Of a stretch of 64,000 nucleotides of DNA, positions 9,501 through 50,308 are shown piece after piece. Made by a program: the position numbers and the translations under genes. The DNA is taken from the NCBI GenBank assembly GCA_009783235.1, contig WRHN01000003.1, positions 62,001 to 126,000 of the forward strand, given 5' to 3'. Position 1 is the first letter of the stretch. Each line of letters begins with the position of its first letter. Source of the DNA: Candidatus Saccharimonadota bacterium (GTDB lineage Bacteria > Patescibacteriota > Saccharimonadia > Saccharimonadales > Saccharimonadaceae). The notes below the pieces were generated by a model. That model saw nothing but the letters and a program-made list of their open reading frames with translations, searched no databases and was not told the DNA's origin.

Positions 9501-10254
9501 TGTTAAAGACGGCAAATTGAAAGTGTCGGCCAGTTTTTACGAGAATAAATACGCGCTGCTCTCGAGCATCGACGGCAAAGTCAAGGTAAAAGAAGACAAG
9601 AAAACTGGTAAGAAAACCGTAACGGTCGAGGGCATTCGTTCAGAGAACGGCGAAAATAAAGACGCTATCGAAACCTTTACGACTTCTAATCGCCTGGCCG
9701 TTAAAAACGGCGACAAAGTGGCGCGCGGCAGCCGTATTACTGAGGGTTCGATTTATCCGCCTTACTTAATGGAGATTATGGGTGAGCATGCTGCCAAGCG
9801 GTATATCCTCAACGATATTTTGCGACTTTATGCTGGTCAAGGCTACGCGCTGTCTTCAAAGCACATTGAGGTGATTATCTCACAAATGTTTAGTCGAGTA
9901 GAAGTAGTTGACCCAGGCGATAGTGATTTGTCAGAAGGGGCGCTAGTCAGTCGCTCGACCGCTAAAGATGCTAATGACAAATTGGCGGCAGAGGGCAAAA
10001 AATTGGCTGAGTTTAAGACCGTGGTTCAGGGCATTAAGCGAGTTTCGGCCACTTCGGACAGCTTCTTGTCAGCAGCTTCGTTCCAAGACACCACTCGAGT
10101 GTTGATTGCGGCGGCCACTAGTGGTAAGGTAGATCGTCTGAAAGGCTTGAAAGAGAACGTCATCATTGGGCGTAAAATCCCTGTTGGTACGGGTGCGATT
10201 GCAGGCATTGGCCTGTCGAACGCGCCAAGCGAAGACGAGTTTACGAATCTGTAA
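6514..10254 (+). CDS. rpoC: RNA polymerase beta' subunit lacking zinc-site cysteines
   Basis: Beta' subunit, 1246 residues. The catalytic magnesium loop NADFDGDQMAVH is intact, as are RRERMGHIKLA and IGVIAAQSVGEPATQLT. Both zinc sites known from typical bacterial beta' appear lost. The N-terminal ribbon between GLFCERIFGP and RRERMGH has no CxC or CxxC pair. The block before IGVIAAQS, normally with three cysteines, reads STLDVDGIPRKAYG. An insert rich in charged residues occupies about 150-260. A strong terminator follows. The function as RNA polymerase subunit is certain. Confidence 0.99.
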   Translation: MEHTGKNIADFDALRLSVASSDDILNWSYGEVTKPETINYRTQKPERDGLFCERIFGPVKDLNPHDAKLKGVRARDAAIDKNGDLVTKSIVRRERMGHIKLAVPVAHIWFMRGVPSAISQLLGISVKNLERIAYYASYVILSVDEERRDQLLTDNENEFEAGKVAIKMRYEKAAGDKDANVKELATEQTHELDELTEKYEAKRDRLGVLVKGALVSEADYRNLEEDYSDLIEVGMGGEAIDQLLSEVDLEAEIAELTEDVAKRRGQSRVKIQKRLKLLEGMKNAGIKPESLCLTVLPVVPPGLRPMVQLTGGRFATSDMNDLYRRVIIRNNRLKKMIELNAPEVIRRNEKRMLQEAVDALIDNSSAHGKPVTSVGGRRTLKSLSDLLKGKKGRFRQNLLGKRVDYSGRSVIVAGPELSLDECGLPKRMALELFKPFIISKLIEWDEASNIRNATRLIESGEAVVWDALDEVIESKYVLLNRAPTLHRLGIQAFRPRLVEGQAIQLSPLVANGFNADFDGDQMAVHLPLSEIAQAEARDLMSARNNLLKPADGLPTLSIYQDIVLGSYYMTYAKPSEQVENPRVFASVDEAVLARDKGLIKPQTNIKIRYKGELRDTTLGRVKLNEALPEDFPFVNEVMTRKALNRVLARIFNRYGSDVTADTANAIKDLTLKNATRSAVSTGMTDYFDIDDLEIDLKEADDKVTATTNAFKDGLITDRERHTAIRTAWVNARNNISDKFTQKLVDTDTGISISVQSGARGSISNVVDVSGIVGVINATYNVSAKRNLDELKMAAEIELPVRSNYKKGLTPLELTVAARGSRKGLIDTALNTAKSGYLTRRLVDAAQDVFTVDGNEDTVDPGFAIYREDSEYTRVTFEDRLIGRYAAEDVKGHIKAGELITQDVAAAIQNDEAIASVKIMSPLSTLDVDGIPRKAYGIDLATGVLVEAHEPIGVIAAQSVGEPATQLTLNNKHGAGEEDVTEGLPRLEELLELYGADVKDGKLKVSASFYENKYALLSSIDGKVKVKEDKKTGKKTVTVEGIRSENGENKDAIETFTTSNRLAVKNGDKVARGSRITEGSIYPPYLMEIMGEHAAKRYILNDILRLYAGQGYALSSKHIEVIISQMFSRVEVVDPGDSDLSEGALVSRSTAKDANDKLAAEGKKLAEFKTVVQGIKRVSATSDSFLSAASFQDTTRVLIAAATSGKVDRLKGLKENVIIGRKIPVGTGAIAGIGLSNAPSEDEFTNL

Positions 10255-18743: not shown

Positions 18744-20129
18744 ATGAACAAGAGACAGAAGGTTGCCCGCAAGTATACCAGAGCGGGCAAACACCAAGCA
18801 TTAAGCAGGTCAAAACTAATCAAACGAGTTCGCATCGTGCTGTCTATCGCGCTGATCTTAGCGGTGTTTGGCGGCAGCATTTATGCTTATTTGGCTAGTA
18901 ATGAGGGCTATAAGCTCAGTCGAGCGATAATTGCTTTTGAGGGCGCAAAACAGCGACAGGTTAACAGGTATGAGCGTTTGCAGGAGAGCATTTCAGCAGC
19001 CGAGACAATTTTGGCCAACGAGAATGCCGAATCCATGAACAATGGCGAGCTGCTGACACAACTGCAAGAATCCGTGGACTCCGCCAAAGACCTAGAAGTG
19101 ATTTCTGATGTTTCTGAGGGTGCGCAAGACAAGAGCCGGCTGGTGAGTGAGGCAGCTGGTGAACTGCGAGAGCAAACGGGCAAGATTGAACAAGCCGACG
19201 AGCAGCTGCGAGAAGTCACTCGCCAAGTACGGGACGACTTGCTGGTCAAGGCCAAGAGCAATTTGTCAGAATCAGTTGAACAGGCCAAACAATCTTTGAA
19301 GGATGCCAGCGGTACAGCACGAAGTGGACTTGAGTCGTTAATTAAGGCAGCCGAACAGACTTTAGATAAATCTACGGATTTGACAGAGATTAGGGAGAAA
19401 AAAGCCCAGCTTGATGAGAGTGTCGCTAAAGTTAGGGCTAGCAAGCAGGCAGCCGCAGCCAGCGTGCTTAAACAGTACGCCGCCCAGCCAGTGCGACGCA
19501 ACGTAGTTGAAGCGCCTGTGGTAACGGTTAGCCCCTGCCCAACGCCAGCCATTGCGGGACTAGCTTGTTTTTCGCAAAAAGACACCGCCTGGGCCAATGT
19601 CAAGGTCGGACAGTGGAAATTTGGTTCAACGGGGTGTGTGCCAACTTCCATAGCCATGGTCATGCACAAGTACGGCAACGGTACTAGCCCGCTGGGGTGG
19701 GGTTGGCGGTTGTATGACGCGGGACTGTATAATTTTTATGTGACTGGCGGCACGTCGGACAGTGTGATTTGGGCGGCCAATTATATGGGGTTGTGGCATG
19801 ACAATATTAGCTCTTTGAACGCTTTAACCGAGCGCCTCCAACAGGGTTATCCAGTAATTGCTCTGGTTCGCCCACCCTACACCGTGCCGAACACCACTCA
19901 TGCTATTGTGCTGAACGGCTACAACAACGGTCAAACTCAGGTTTTAGACCCGCTGGCCAATAGGGTTTCGGGCTGGCATTCGGTAGCGGATATTTTTGCC
20001 CATCGTTCGGACGACAAAATTGATTATGGCACTACAGGGACTGTTTTTACGGCTATCGGTCGAGCACCAGTGATTACGCCGCCGGTGATTATACCACCAG
20101 TGATTGACGATGAGTCAGAAGAAGAGTGA
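18744..20129 (+). CDS. Membrane-anchored coiled-coil protein with C39-like peptidase domain
   Basis: 461 residues. A basic N-terminus and a membrane helix (about 30-52) are followed by a long coiled coil (about 65-245) and a C-terminal papain-like domain of the C39-like type. The presumed catalytic Cys is in STGCVPTSIAMVMHKYGNG and the His in TTHAIVLNGY. Asn or Asp candidates follow (VLDPLAN). A Pro/Ile-rich tail ends in acidic residues. It is probably extracellular and acts on peptide or cell-wall substrates. A near-consensus promoter ends 7 bases before the ATG, so it looks leaderless. Confidence 0.85.
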   Translation: MNKRQKVARKYTRAGKHQALSRSKLIKRVRIVLSIALILAVFGGSIYAYLASNEGYKLSRAIIAFEGAKQRQVNRYERLQESISAAETILANENAESMNNGELLTQLQESVDSAKDLEVISDVSEGAQDKSRLVSEAAGELREQTGKIEQADEQLREVTRQVRDDLLVKAKSNLSESVEQAKQSLKDASGTARSGLESLIKAAEQTLDKSTDLTEIREKKAQLDESVAKVRASKQAAAASVLKQYAAQPVRRNVVEAPVVTVSPCPTPAIAGLACFSQKDTAWANVKVGQWKFGSTGCVPTSIAMVMHKYGNGTSPLGWGWRLYDAGLYNFYVTGGTSDSVIWAANYMGLWHDNISSLNALTERLQQGYPVIALVRPPYTVPNTTHAIVLNGYNNGQTQVLDPLANRVSGWHSVADIFAHRSDDKIDYGTTGTVFTAIGRAPVITPPVIIPPVIDDESEEE

Positions 20130-33890: not shown

Positions 33891-34024
33891 TTGACTTTTA
33901 ATAATTAGTGTGCTATAATATGGGACATTGTTTTGGCGCGATGCCAAACAAAGACCCTTAAGAATTCGGTGTGATAGGGTATGTCTATCTGCCCAGTTTT
34001 TACCATAACGAAAGTAAGAAAATA
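33891..34024 (+). promoter_or_regulatory. Cassette copy 2: promoter and structured leader
   Basis: TTGACT (33891-33896), 17-base spacer, TATAAT (33914-33919). Hairpin TTTGGC/GCCAAA (33932-33948) with loop GCGAT. Then AATTCGG and TGTGATAG (33970-33977). The stretch after it (GGTATGTCTATCTGCCCAG) resembles copy 3 (GCATATGCTTATCCAGCC). Confidence 0.7.
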
Positions 34025-34951
34025 ATGATCGTTCCAACTAATAGCGGCGATGCGCAGATTACATTGCTAGACGGAAGAAGATTTTGCTTTTACCGATGGA
34101 AGTTAGGCAAGAAAGAGGTCAAGGGCGTGGTCGACAAGCTAGTTCGTTTTGCATTTTTTATTGCTAAAAACAGCGATAAAAGTGTGAACTTGCCAACGCG
34201 TGCTGAGCTGCGACAGCAGATTCGCAAACAGGTTAAGGCCTTAAACAGAAAAGGATATGCATTGAAATATTTCTTGCGTTTGGGCGCCGATATTATTTCG
34301 GAAAAACGACTAAGGCAATTGATTCACTCACAATACGCCGCCCCGGGCACAATACGAACGCCTGCTGCGCACAAGGATAGTTATGTGGATTTAGAGTTAG
34401 GAAGAGCGCTTACCGGTATTACGGTTTGTGGGATGTTTTTACATATGCACTCATGTGGTAGAGGCGGCTGCCGTGCGGTTACTCACGACATAGATTGTCG
34501 TAATCGCGGCGGAATGCCTATATCTGAAAGCAGCCGCTGTTCAGAATGTGATGCTTATTATAGAGACGAGACATCGGTATTGATGGGAATGAGTTATGAG
34601 CATACTCCTGATAGCGTAGCGGTGGCTATACTCGAGACGATGGATCAATTAATCAACATGGATTTTGGTTCAAGCTTCAATAAGGATTTTCTCAAGTATC
34701 GTGATTATCTGTCTTTGCATTTGATGAAGACACGTAAGCCGGGTTTTGATCCATGGAGAGTAAAACTAGCAGAAGTTCCAGGATACGATATAGACCACCT
34801 GTTTTACGCCGACTTTATACGTCGGCTGATGATTTACGGTTGCTACGCAAGTGGCGGCGCTCCATGGGTCGAGTTGCGGCCGGATCGTGGTTATGCCGTT
34901 GGTTGCTATTCTACCAGTATGTCCATCATAGCCGTGGGCTCTAAATTGTGA
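34025..34951 (+). CDS. Orphan protein, cassette family, copy 2
   Basis: 308 residues from ATG 34025; an in-frame start at 33971 would lie within the conserved leader and is unlikely. It shares FFIAKNSDK, GYALKYFLRLGADIIS, TGITVCGMFL and YRDYLSLHLM with copies 1 and 3. Unlike them it carries a ~60-residue insert after the TGITVCGMFL block. The insert has five cysteines in CGRGGC, DIDC and CSEC groups, suggestive of a metal site. No signal or membrane segment is visible. Function unknown. Confidence 0.82.
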   Translation: MIVPTNSGDAQITLLDGRRFCFYRWKLGKKEVKGVVDKLVRFAFFIAKNSDKSVNLPTRAELRQQIRKQVKALNRKGYALKYFLRLGADIISEKRLRQLIHSQYAAPGTIRTPAAHKDSYVDLELGRALTGITVCGMFLHMHSCGRGGCRAVTHDIDCRNRGGMPISESSRCSECDAYYRDETSVLMGMSYEHTPDSVAVAILETMDQLINMDFGSSFNKDFLKYRDYLSLHLMKTRKPGFDPWRVKLAEVPGYDIDHLFYADFIRRLMIYGCYASGGAPWVELRPDRGYAVGCYSTSMSIIAVGSKL

Positions 34952-37596: not shown

Positions 37597-38277
37597 ATGG
37601 CAAACGAGAAGATTACTTTAAGTGTTACAAAGCGCGAAGTTACTGGCAAAAAGGTCAAAGAACTGAGAGTCAAGGGCCTAGTGCCGGGCGTGATTTATGG
37701 TGCTAAAATTGAGCCAGTGCTGGTTCAGACCGAACTTTTGCCGTTGATTAAGGTTATTAAAGCAGCTGGCACGCACACGCCAATTGAAATCAACGTCGAG
37801 GGCGGCGACAAGCACACGGCTATTATTAAAGAAGTGGTGCGGGCAGTAACCAAAACCACGCCAATTCACATAGAGTTTCAGGCGGTGTCGGCTGACCAAA
37901 TTGTGCGTACAGAGGTGCCTATCCGTGTGATCGATGAAGAAGAATCGCAGGCGAAGAAATTGGGCTTGTTGTTCATGCAGAGTCTAGAAGAGATCGAAGT
38001 GAAGGCAAAACCAGCAGATCTGCCGGAATTTTTGGCAGTATCGGCTAAGGAGTTAGCAAAACACGATGATAAATTGCTGGTTTCTAATATTGCAGTGCCA
38101 GAAGGGGTTGAAATCTTGATTGAGGACATTGACACGCCAGTGTTGACGGTGGCTGACCCGAGTGTTTTGGCGGCTAAGAGCGAGGCGGAAGATCAAAAAG
38201 ACGAAGCGGAAACGGCTGAAGTCGCTGCTAATGACGCTGAGGCGACTGCGCCCGCAGAGACCGAAAAAACCGAATAA
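37597..38277 (+). CDS. rplY: Ribosomal protein L25 (Ctc form)
   Basis: 226 residues, the long TL5/CTC type. An N-terminal 5S rRNA-binding domain (VTGKKVKELRVKGLVPGVIYG) is followed by the C-terminal beta domain (EIEVKAKPADLPEFLAVS) and an acidic Ala/Glu tail. Ribosome site AGAGGAGAG. Own terminator. Confidence 0.97.
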   Translation: MANEKITLSVTKREVTGKKVKELRVKGLVPGVIYGAKIEPVLVQTELLPLIKVIKAAGTHTPIEINVEGGDKHTAIIKEVVRAVTKTTPIHIEFQAVSADQIVRTEVPIRVIDEEESQAKKLGLLFMQSLEEIEVKAKPADLPEFLAVSAKELAKHDDKLLVSNIAVPEGVEILIEDIDTPVLTVADPSVLAAKSEAEDQKDEAETAEVAANDAEATAPAETEKTE

Positions 38278-38295
38278 TACTAGTTAAGGTTCATG

Positions 38296-38328
38296 GAAAT
38301 CTCCCTAAAGTTGGGAGATTTTTATTTT
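38296..38328 (+). terminator. rplY terminator
   Basis: Stem AAATCTCCC/GGGAGATTT followed by TTATTTT. Confidence 0.85.
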
Positions 38329-38388
38329 AACTAACAGAGGTAAGAAAAACATAAGCTTGCTAAATATAAAAAAACTTTGCAAAAAGTA

Positions 38389-38417
38389 TTGACCCGCAGA
38401 ATCTAGTATGATATACT
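38389..38417 (+). promoter_or_regulatory. Promoter of the large structured RNA
   Basis: TTGACC (38389-38394), 17-base spacer, TATACT (38412-38417): one of the closest matches to consensus in the window. Confidence 0.8.
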
Positions 38418-38424
38418 AGCCAAA

Positions 38425-39118
38425 GTCGGGAAGGGAAAATTCCTATGCGCGTGAAAATATTCCAGGGTGTCTGAGAAGAACAGAGAGCTGGTTGCGCAAA
38501 AACTCTAAAGCTGTAGGGAGCGAGAGAACCTAGGCATTCACTGCCGCGTGGTCTGGTGGGCCATTAGTCGTCAAGACGTTAAAGTGAATGACCGAAATTG
38601 AGAGTCATAAGTACTCATGGATCGTGTGGAGATTACTCAGAGGAAAATAAGAGTATTCGGAACCGTCCACTTGAGCCGGGCAAAGGACTCTCAGACGTGC
38701 TATGGTCGTCTTAGATAACGATGAAGTTGTCAAGACAACAATGACCAGAGCGCGAGCGATTTAGTCGAGGAGGAAGACGCGAGACGACTGACAAAGACGT
38801 CCGCAAATTCGACACCCCGCTAGTGCTAATTGTGCTTGTAAGTGACACAATTGCAGAGTGGCCAACCCGTCAATTGACGAGAGACGCCCCTAAATCTAGC
38901 AAAATAGTTTTCCAAGATGGTAAAAGAAAATCGCGCCTAAAGTTACTGTTTTAAACAATAACTGACTTCGCTGAGCGAAATCCTCTTCGCGAGAAGTCCC
39001 CAGAAAACTATTCCTCCACACTTACCTGAGCTCCCGTGAGGGAACTCATCACCCCTATGCGGGTCCGATAAACGCCAACCGGCGCAACATCAGACCAGCA
39101 TAGGGGCCTTTTCTTTTT
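38425..39118 (+). ncRNA. Large highly structured noncoding RNA, unidentified
   Basis: About 690 bases between a strong promoter and a terminator, with no plausible ORF. Many perfect helices can be read: CATTCACT 38535 with 38583; TGAGAGTC 38599 with 38686, enclosing GTGGA 38626/38666 and TACTC 38634/38651; TGGTC 38703/38743, enclosing GTTGT/ACAAC; AGTCG 38763/38785; AATTGTG 38828/38846; CGTC-AATT-GACG 38868. AATAGTTTTC 38903 pairs with 39003 over ~90 bases, enclosing CTTC-GCGA-GAAG. TCCC-GTGA-GGGA follows. The last two are GNRA tetraloops. RNase P, tmRNA, SRP and 6S signatures are absent. Confidence 0.75.
39052..39118 (+). terminator. Terminator of the large RNA
   Basis: CCCCTATGC (39052-39060) pairs with GCATAGGGG (39098-39106); inner hairpin CGCC/GGCG; then CCTTTTCTTTTT. 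Confidence 0.88.
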
Positions 39119-39172
39119 ATAATGATTAATTCTTGTAAAAATGACAAAATAGAATTACAATATGGTGTAAAT

Positions 39173-39985
39173 ATGAGTAAAAAAGTAAAAATTGTAACAA
39201 TTATATTAGCGGTGCTGACAGTACCAGTTAACTTATTCTTCATGCTCTTAGGTGGGAGTGGAGCGTTTATTTGGTTTATTATCGCTCTTGCAGCAGTAAT
39301 CTTATTAAAAATATATGCCCCGAAAATGATATGGATTGCTTTAATAGCGATTACAGCTATAACACTTATAGGGACTTTCCCTAGAATGCTTATGCCGGGT
39401 GAGACAAAACAAATAAAAGAGTATCTAATTAGCACGTACAGCAAAGACACGTTTGAGATTAAACGCAGCTCTCTTTCGGTTGAGGGTACAAAAAAATTTT
39501 GCAGTAGTGGCGCTACCTGGCTATCATTTTGCTTTGGTTTTACTATGTTTCATTGGACATACTTAGACGCTATTATAATTGATGAAAACGGCGACGAATT
39601 TCGACTACATGCTGAAAAAGTCGGCAATAGACTTGGGGAATTTAGCGATGATTATTCAAACAGGCAGGACATAAAAGCGCGGAAAAAAGAATTTATAGAA
39701 AATATGCTTATTCCTACTTTGAAAGAATACAGCATAACAGACGTTAATTATAGTTATAGTGAGTATCATGTTGACGCAAGTATCGTAGTAAAAGAATATT
39801 TAGATAAAAACAAAGAAGAACAAATGTGGGAAGAAATAAGGCTAAAAGCAGGAGATAAGTGGTCTATTACTGGGGTGGTTGTTAATGTTAAGTATTATCG
39901 AGAATCGCCACCGGGTCAATATAATGAAATTGACACGTACCATTTAACAGACAGTAATCATAACCGGTGGGATAGTAATATTTAA
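39173..39985 (+). CDS. Orphan membrane protein, AT-rich gene
   Basis: 270 residues. Two or three hydrophobic helices (about 5-70) are followed by a charged C-terminal domain with Tyr- and Lys-rich stretches. TTGTAA, 17-base spacer and TACAAT (39157-39162) set a start 10 bases before ATG 39173, so an in-frame ATG at 39122 is unlikely. Codons are visibly richer in A and T (AAA, ATA, TTA) than in neighbours, a hint of recent transfer or weak expression. No domain recognised. Confidence 0.75.
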   Translation: MSKKVKIVTIILAVLTVPVNLFFMLLGGSGAFIWFIIALAAVILLKIYAPKMIWIALIAITAITLIGTFPRMLMPGETKQIKEYLISTYSKDTFEIKRSSLSVEGTKKFCSSGATWLSFCFGFTMFHWTYLDAIIIDENGDEFRLHAEKVGNRLGEFSDDYSNRQDIKARKKEFIENMLIPTLKEYSITDVNYSYSEYHVDASIVVKEYLDKNKEEQMWEEIRLKAGDKWSITGVVVNVKYYRESPPGQYNEIDTYHLTDSNHNRWDSNI

Positions 39986-40015: not shown

Positions 40016-40870
40016 TTATTTTTTGGCAGGTTTTTTCTTAGGGGTACTTTGGTTAGCGTAAGCGTAGGCTAGGCCGACGAAGACTACGCCGCCCATAATG
40101 TTGCCGATGGTGACTGGTATTAAATTAGAGACGAAAAAGCCGAATGGGTTGAGCGTGGCAAACGAGGCGCTGCTTAGGCCGATGTCGGTGGCGGCTGCGA
40201 CGTAAGCAGGGTCAGTAGCGGCGAACATGCCGGCCGAAATGTAGTACATGTTAGCCACGGAGTGTTCAAAGCCCGAAGCGACGAAGAGCATGATGGGGAA
40301 GAAAATTGCTAAAATCTTGCCGGGGAAGGTTTTGGCAGTCCAGGCCAGCCACACTGCCAGACAAACCAGCCAGTTACAAAGTACGCCCAAAATTAGCGCC
40401 GGCATGAAATCAAGAGCGGTTTTGCCAGCGGCTATTTTGACGGTCAGCCCGCCGAGCAGGTCGCCGCTCGCGTGGAACAGACCGCTGAAATACATTAACG
40501 CGGCAATGAACACGGCACCAGCCATATTGGCGAGATAGACCAAAATCCAATTGCGCAGCAGCGCTGACCAGCGGATTTTTTTCTTGATGGCGGCTCCAGT
40601 CATCAGAACGTTGCCAGTAAAAAGTTCGCTACCAGTTAACACGACCAACATCAATCCGACAGCGAAAACTGCACCAGCCACCAGTCGACCCAGGCCGTAC
40701 ATTTCGGGGGACGACAACAGATTCATCGCTACCATATTAGAAGCTTCGGCGGCAAAAGCGATAAAGGCCCCTGCCAAAAATCCTAAAATCAGCAGTTTTT
40801 TAACCGATGCGCCAGCTTTAGCCTGGGCTACGGCAAAACTGTTTTCTACTACCTCACTTGGTGTTTGCAT
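40016..40870 (-). CDS. Formate/nitrite transporter (FNT) family channel
   Basis: 284 residues, six membrane helices. LTGSELFTGNVLMTG and the second half ILGVLCNWLVCLAVWLAW are FNT signatures; the central His of the channel is in ASGFEHSVANMYY. FNT pentamers conduct formate, nitrite, hydrosulfide or lactate. In a fermenting cell, export of formate or lactate is the simplest guess. A minus-strand TATAAT 8 bases before the ATG suggests a leaderless mRNA. Confidence 0.93.
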   Translation of the reverse strand: MQTPSEVVENSFAVAQAKAGASVKKLLILGFLAGAFIAFAAEASNMVAMNLLSSPEMYGLGRLVAGAVFAVGLMLVVLTGSELFTGNVLMTGAAIKKKIRWSALLRNWILVYLANMAGAVFIAALMYFSGLFHASGDLLGGLTVKIAAGKTALDFMPALILGVLCNWLVCLAVWLAWTAKTFPGKILAIFFPIMLFVASGFEHSVANMYYISAGMFAATDPAYVAAATDIGLSSASFATLNPFGFFVSNLIPVTIGNIMGGVVFVGLAYAYANQSTPKKKPAKK

Positions 40871-40922: not shown

Positions 40923-41135
40923 TTGCATTACCTCAGAAAATATGCTAAAATCAACCCCAGTAGTTAAGTTAAGCAAAGGATAGCCCCTGTTTTAGGCTGA
41001 ACTAAGCTTTAACTGCGAGAGAGCGTGTCGTTAATCATCGGCGCGTGCGGGCCAGAACAGGCTGGGCCCAGCATCAATATTAACTAATGGTTTAGAGTGT
41101 TCATAATCTGAGCGCTCATAAGAAAGGATGGACTC
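40923..41135 (+). promoter_or_regulatory. Alpha operon promoter and long leader
   Basis: TTGCAT (40923-40928), 17-base spacer, TAAAAT (40946-40951). The ~175-base leader before rpmJ can fold: GTTAAT pairs with ATTAAC across GGGCC/GGGCCC hairpins. In E. coli the alpha operon leader binds S4; rpsD is in this operon, so feedback at this leader is plausible but unproven. Confidence 0.6.
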
Positions 41136-41252
41136 ATGAAAGTCCGCGCAAGCGTGAAAAAAATTAGTCCTGATGATAAATTGGTTCGCCGCAAAGGCAG
41201 ACTGCGCGTCATCAATAAGAAAAAACCAAAAAATAAGCAGAGGCAAGGTTAA
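41136..41252 (+). CDS. rpmJ: Ribosomal protein L36, cysteine-free
   Basis: 38 residues beginning [10 protein letters not shown] and ending KNKQRQG. The zinc-ligand Cys positions of classical L36 are replaced (SPDDK, INKKKP), so it is the zinc-independent form. The ribosome site is AAAGGA. rpsM follows after one base. Confidence 0.95.
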
Positions 41253-49426: not shown

Positions 49427-50308
49427 ATGAAAAAATTGACTCACGTTATGACGGAAACCGCACGTCGCAGAGAATTTACGCTGTCAAACAACAGCACAGT
49501 TCGCTTGCAACTGGGGAACCTGAGTGACCAAGAAGCCCGTGAGACAGTCTGGAGACTGCGTGATTTCGCCCTTTTTATTTTTGAGCACAGCGATAAAGAT
49601 GTCCAGTTGACAGGAAATAATATTAAACTGGAATCAGAGCTTTACGACAACGTCTGGGCTCTGAACCGCGCGGGATATAAGATGGAATATTTTCTGCGCT
49701 TAGGCAGCGATGTTATTTCAGAAAAGCGTCTGAGAGAGCTGGTTGACCCAGAATTCGTCTCTGGCGAACTGTGGGATGGCTATACTGTGGAAGAACTTGA
49801 AGGTCAGTTCACTGGTATAGCAGTCTGCGGTGTGTTCCTGCGCTACGATGACCCTGCCGACCCAGTCGTTGCTGATCAAAAACTTATTCTAATGAATATG
49901 CATTTTGATAATCAGTATGCTGAAGATTGGCAAGTGAATAAACTCGCAGCTCATCAAAAGATTATTCTTGATAGTCAGCGCCCTAGGCCCCATGAAATGA
50001 CGCAAGTCAGGGCTGTTAAAGATCTAGTTGGCTCTGACTTTGGCCCAGAACTCGAACAAGATTCAGTTACTTATCGTGACGTTCTATCTATGTATTTAAT
50101 GAGCAAGCACGCTGGAATAGGAACCGCTCCATATGGAACGGGAAGCTTAGCATTAGTCAGCTTGCCACGAGGTGGCGTTGTTGGGGAGACAGAGGTCCCA
50201 GAGCTTTCCTCGCCCCATGGCCGTTTGGGACTGTACGCATCCAGGGGTCTCGTTCCGAGCGAAGGCACTGGCGTGTCCCTCCTGGCGGGGTTGAAAAATC
50301 AAGCCTGA
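49427..50308 (+). CDS. Orphan protein, cassette family, copy 3
   Basis: 293 residues. Shares SDK (LFIFEHSDKDV), GYKMEYFLRLGSDVIS, TGIAVCGVFLRYD, KLILMNMHFD and YRDVLSMYLM with copy 1; these two are closer to each other than to copy 2. A ~20-residue segment around NKLAAHQKIILDSQRP is absent from copy 1. The C-terminal third is Gly/Ser-rich and unshared. No signal or membrane segment. Function unknown. Confidence 0.85.
   Translation: MKKLTHVMTETARRREFTLSNNSTVRLQLGNLSDQEARETVWRLRDFALFIFEHSDKDVQLTGNNIKLESELYDNVWALNRAGYKMEYFLRLGSDVISEKRLRELVDPEFVSGELWDGYTVEELEGQFTGIAVCGVFLRYDDPADPVVADQKLILMNMHFDNQYAEDWQVNKLAAHQKIILDSQRPRPHEMTQVRAVKDLVGSDFGPELEQDSVTYRDVLSMYLMSKHAGIGTAPYGTGSLALVSLPRGGVVGETEVPELSSPHGRLGLYASRGLVPSEGTGVSLLAGLKNQA

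Follow-up and report, generated by a model that had tools for sequence, protein, structure and literature searches.

A putative ~690-nt noncoding RNA gene with its own promoter and terminator in a lineage-specific block of a Saccharimonadaceae genome

Introduction

Downstream of a bL25 ribosomal protein gene, a genome of Candidatus Saccharimonadota (family Saccharimonadaceae) contains a long stretch into which no protein-coding gene fits. What does this stretch encode? It lies in a window of 64,000 nt (contig WRHN01000003.1, positions 62,001 to 126,000), which is the whole piece of DNA under study, and positions are given in window numbering unless another contig or locus is named. The original prediction had proposed a large structured RNA that may be either the representative of a new class like OLE, ROOL or GOLLD, or a very divergent member of one of these. 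As described in the following, the stretch probably represents a genuine noncoding RNA gene that is specific to its lineage, whereas its status as a new class is unproven.

Results

With a cut-off of at least 95 aa for ORFs, positions 38275-39057 form an ORF-free stretch of 783 nt, which is indeed the longest of the window, if only narrowly, as the next two reach 758 nt each. The claim that no ORF fits is borne out by a largest ORF of 45 aa and by six-frame translations that gave no Pfam match at E<=1, and for the latter reason a pseudogene of a recognisable protein was rejected. The GC content by codon phase varies between 0.43 and 0.52, as compared to 0.34-0.60 in the L25 gene, and the overall GC content of 0.48-0.49 compares to 0.40-0.45 in the other gaps of the window.

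The unit begins with a promoter that had rightly been called near-consensus, with a TG ahead of the -10 element and thus of the extended -10 type, and a terminator-like hairpin of the L25 gene lies between that gene and the unit (Table 1). The pattern TTGAC-N13-15-TGnTA[TC]A[AC]T, which was drawn up after inspection of this promoter and that of a second RNA (RNA-A, see below), occurs 31 times on the six contigs of the genome, but on average only 0.25 times in 20 dinucleotide-preserving shuffles of it. Most of the other genomic copies sit ahead of genes, and one is found ahead of RNA-A. Even with a pattern that was defined post hoc, an enrichment of about 120-fold is the reason to regard the promoter as almost certainly genuine. 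The predicted RNA start at 38425 is placed some 7 nt past the -10 element. At the other end, the terminator is as strong as had been claimed: its two arms (39052-39069 and 39089-39106) have 18 nt each, are 89% complementary, and are followed by the T-tract TTTTCTTTTT. Positions 38389-39118 thus combine what characterizes an independent noncoding RNA gene, namely an own promoter, an own terminator, and no ORF.

Table 1. Features of the locus and positions of RNA-A loci
Feature	Position	Strand	Evidence
bL25 (rplY/ctc) ribosomal protein gene, upstream neighbour	37597..38277	+	Pfam PF01386 1e-16, PF14693 2e-15
Hairpin resembling a terminator, L25 gene, ATCTCCC..GGGAGAT and T-run	38299..38328	+	sequence
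Promoter TTGACC-N17-TATACT, TG ahead of -10 (extended -10)	38389..38417	+	pattern count
Candidate noncoding RNA, ~690 nt	38425..39118	+	no ORF, no Pfam (six frames), no Rfam, MFE/z
Hairpin domain, 8-bp closing helix CATTCACT/AGTGAATG (38535/38590)	38533..38592	+	z -1.5, alone not significant
Domain of ~96 nt, 8-bp closing helix TGAGAGTC/GACTCTCA (38599/38693)	38598..38694	+	z -2.3
Hairpin domain, strongest internal	38695..38755	+	z -5.4; 0/200 shuffles equally stable
Domain with closing pair GCTAG/CTAGC	38818..38901	+	z -2.6
Domain, ~90 nt inside perfect 10-bp helix AATAGTTTTC/GAAAACTATT	38903..39012	+	z -3.7
Hairpin, GUGA (GNRA) tetraloop at 39036-39039	39027..39048	+	z -2.9
Intrinsic terminator, 55-nt hairpin, then T-tract	39052..39118	+	z -7.3
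Orphan gene, putative membrane protein (hydrophobic N-terminus), 35% GC, directly 3' of RNA	39173..39985	+	no Pfam
Formate/nitrite transporter gene, far end of inserted block	40016..40870	-	PF01226 1.5e-77
RNA-A, own genome (contig C3, outside the window), L234	~19015-19292	-	
RNA-A, L155	5143-5523		
RNA-A, L150	11807-11963	-	
RNA-A, L189-L218			

Is it a known RNA? The Rfam search that had been recommended was carried out with cmscan, 4227 families and both strands, and no family reached the threshold; at E<=10, there were only short chance matches. The Rfam models therefore lend no support to a very divergent OLE, ROOL or GOLLD member, and the predicted lack of RNase P or tmRNA signatures agrees with this search. 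Large structured RNAs of the housekeeping type are present elsewhere in the same genome (G000): RNase P RNA is encoded at G000:C1:113652-113996 and tmRNA at G000:C1:118259-118668, both on another contig. A tmRNA is recognised by its tRNA-like ends and its tag ORF, and ARAGORN detected none in the stretch. Both identities were therefore rejected. The ~690-nt unit is thus supported as an independent noncoding transcription unit outside all curated families.

The fold of this RNA needs to be judged against the background of the region. Including the terminator, the minimum free energy is -227 kcal/mol (z -4.4 to -4.6), and the body without terminator has z values from -2.7 to -3.9, depending on the shuffle set, while random windows of the same region average at z -1.3 (sd 1.5), with 5 of 36 being as low as the -2.9 of the body. 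The named helices, i.e. the 10-bp helix that closes ~90 nt and the two 8-bp helices, are all present, and so are both GNRA tetraloops, although the hairpin of the GCGA loop at 38989-38992 competes with an alternative pairing in the minimum-energy fold. The assertion of a helix density far above chance, in contrast, did not hold: at minimum energy, 38425-39050 folds with 16 helices that are 5 bp or longer and 9 that are 6 bp or longer, and the shuffles have 16.1 and 9.3, respectively. Perfect inverted repeats of at least 8 nt within 160 nt occur three times where 0.97 are expected (p = 0.07), a number that is equalled in 9% of random windows. When folded separately, the parts 38425-38815 and 38816-39050 have z values of -4.4 and -4.1. 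As known RNAs of the same genome span a wide range (16S piece +0.2, RNase P -1.4, tmRNA -5.8, 23S piece -6.5), these values fit an RNA gene, without proving one.

A search for homologs in other Saccharibacteria had been recommended, and none emerged: blastn searches of 295 genomes of the family and 393 of the order found nothing credible apart from the own genome. The best match outside the own genome (genome G180, E 7e-4) lies inside a coding stretch and was rejected as chance. Two single-sequence covariance models (38598-38762 and 38816-39014) had the window as their only credible match among the 295 family genomes, and gave no credible match in the fetched sequence of genome G003 or in the remainder of the own genome. 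A paralog in the own genome was rejected, as the weak match at L250 is inside a coding gene that resembles DNA polymerase I. Phage and plasmid records, as well as six exact patterns in IMG/VR, gave chance matches only, among them 45 nt of a Microviridae record (E 0.02) and 23 identical bases at L088, the latter within a phage ORF. Moreover, the L25 synteny of relatives has no long gap downstream of L25. The identical blastn search with RNA-A served as positive control and found 163 of the 174 genomes of genus g2, mostly at 70-90% identity, and a conserved RNA of ~690 nt would probably have been detected likewise. As RNA-A was found in this way and the window RNA was not, the latter is either lineage-confined or evolves much faster.

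In the own genome, infA and rpmJ flank L25, the RNA, the orphan membrane-protein gene and the formate/nitrite transporter gene. Judged by L25 (54% identity), the nearest relative is genome G003 of a sister genus, which has the order secY-sortase-infA-unrelated gene-rpmJ-rpsM at this site. As the block is absent there, and as neither the orphan membrane protein nor the transporter has a match in the fetched G003 sequence, the RNA is part of a lineage-specific block. The orphan membrane protein gave nothing convincing in PHROGs, PADLOC and NCBIfam, and no relative of it was found in IMG/VR or in 85 further genomes of the family. A possible structured leader at ~40940-41140 precedes rpmJ/rpsM, and G003 has a similar stretch in the corresponding position (L124 ~9700-9880). 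That genome also carries a fragment of a group II intron (L102:194-282, Rfam group-II-D1D4-1, 50 bits).

RNA-A surfaced when relatives were scanned for comparable RNAs. This conserved structured RNA has ~310-380 nt and matches no Rfam family, and it comes with a strong promoter and a terminator of its own. Apart from the genomes of genus g2, its profile reaches G003 and the own genome, which belong to two other genera, and compensatory changes were found in 32 of 66 predicted pairs (26 sequences, with the 5' parts of G000 and G003 being poorly aligned). RNA-A is probably a new RNA family, and it is a stronger case for one than the window RNA. The two are not the same RNA, as the own genome carries its own RNA-A copy elsewhere. 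The RNA-A promoter (C3:19324, minus strand) is identical over 29 bases to the promoter at 33891-33919 of the hypothetical gene 33971. That gene (33971-34951) belongs to three apparently paralogous uncharacterised proteins, together with 78-926 and 49427-50308, that have common motifs such as YFLRLGADIISEKRL; its protein has no Pfam match, and it shares with 78-926 the same strong promoter class just upstream and a similar leader sequence. In G003, another orphan and highly structured RNA candidate with promoter and terminator is located at L096:1985-2535 (z -8.4 without terminator), and a search of the 294 other genomes of the family did not detect it.

Discussion

How does the window RNA compare to known large RNAs? 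OLE RNA is a stand-alone structured RNA of ~600 nt (PMC12265935, PMC12286853). The window RNA is likewise stand-alone, has a similar size, and adjoins a putative membrane-protein gene, but unlike OLE it has no Rfam match beyond chance (E<=10) and no demonstrable conserved core. The partner of OLE is a membrane protein of the OapA type, and the putative membrane protein beside the window RNA matches no named family, as Pfam, PHROGs and NCBIfam gave nothing noteworthy for it. ROOL and GOLLD are RNAs of phages and prophages that often neighbour tRNA islands (PMC12286853). The window RNA resembles them in being large, noncoding and without an assigned role, but it is located in a ribosomal-protein cluster, ~21 kb from the nearest tRNAs, which are at 17.3-17.6 kb of the window, and has no Rfam match. 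No phage, prophage or tRNA-island context was found, with no homolog in phage records or among the IMG/VR patterns. With RNA-A, it has the genome, the promoter class, the intrinsic terminator and the lack of an Rfam family in common, but RNA-A is conserved in three genera and covaries, and the RNA-A profile does not match the window RNA.

We favour, with moderate confidence, the reading of 38425-39118 as an autonomous gene for a noncoding RNA whose fold acts in trans. RNA polymerase would start just past the extended -10 promoter, probably with strong transcription, and halt at the intrinsic terminator. The ~690-nt RNA, if it is stable, would fold as a string of hairpin domains, and this fold would most likely act in trans as a protein-binding or scaffold RNA. 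The promoter enrichment, the terminator, the lack of an ORF or protein family, the GC content, the folding of the two parts and the different gene order of the sister genome argue for an RNA gene. Against it stand the lack of homologs, and hence of any indication that sequence or structure are under selection, helix counts equal to those of shuffles, z values that are also reached by random windows, and a terminator that ends 4-55 nt ahead of a downstream start codon, which resembles the arrangement of an attenuated leader.

This last point leads to an alternative, which we consider unlikely: the unit could be a long, attenuator-bearing 5' leader of the orphan membrane-protein gene, in which a signal selects between termination and read-through. 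The terminator is directly 5' of that gene on the same strand, and a 5' segment copies the terminator 5' arm at 10 of 11 positions, so that UUCCUAUGC (38440-38448) could pair with the 3' arm GCAUAGGGG and serve as antiterminator. However, by our own estimate a sequence of 694 nt should contain about two such 10/11 matches by chance, a leader of 690 nt would be very long, and a separate promoter-like site (9/12) at 39133-39161 is positioned just ahead of the ORF. It is rather improbable that the stretch is non-functional, i.e. decayed gene or filler DNA of an acquired block with a leftover real promoter and terminator and with structure at chance level. The missing homologs, the shuffle-like helix numbers and the odd composition of the adjoining orphan gene would agree with this, but the GC content is unlike that of decayed intergenic DNA, the six frames contain no protein trace, the sub-regions fold at z values of about -4, and reduced genomes tend to shed such non-functional DNA.

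The window RNA could also belong to a new class of large ornate RNAs that evolve rapidly in this family, with the L096 RNA of the sister genus as its counterpart, but this appears very improbable. The L096 RNA is built alike, as a unit of ~550 nt without ORF or Rfam match (z -7 to -8) between an extended -10 promoter and a terminator. It is likewise an orphan across 295 genomes, and shares ACTCATCACC ahead of the terminator, but word sharing is near chance (10-mer p = 0.19), the neighbours differ, and the window-RNA models, even with filters off, gave no credible match on L096. Homology of the two RNAs is therefore unsupported. The proposal of a new large class like OLE, ROOL or GOLLD did not gain ground, as no homolog was found and the helix density is not above chance. 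It is rather unlikely that the window RNA is the first example of a new class of large ornate RNAs that evolves rapidly, is restricted to a lineage of Saccharibacteria-like bacteria, and may include the L096 RNA as well.

In methodological terms, helix counts by eye fail to tell RNA genes from ordinary sequence, whereas a promoter grammar that is calibrated on the genome can do so. If the autonomous RNA gene is transcribed and functional, the 690-nt orphan RNA would be a costly, recently gained gene in a genome of 0.68 Mb. Should the lineage-restricted class exist, very small episymbiont genomes would keep gaining or remaking large RNAs.
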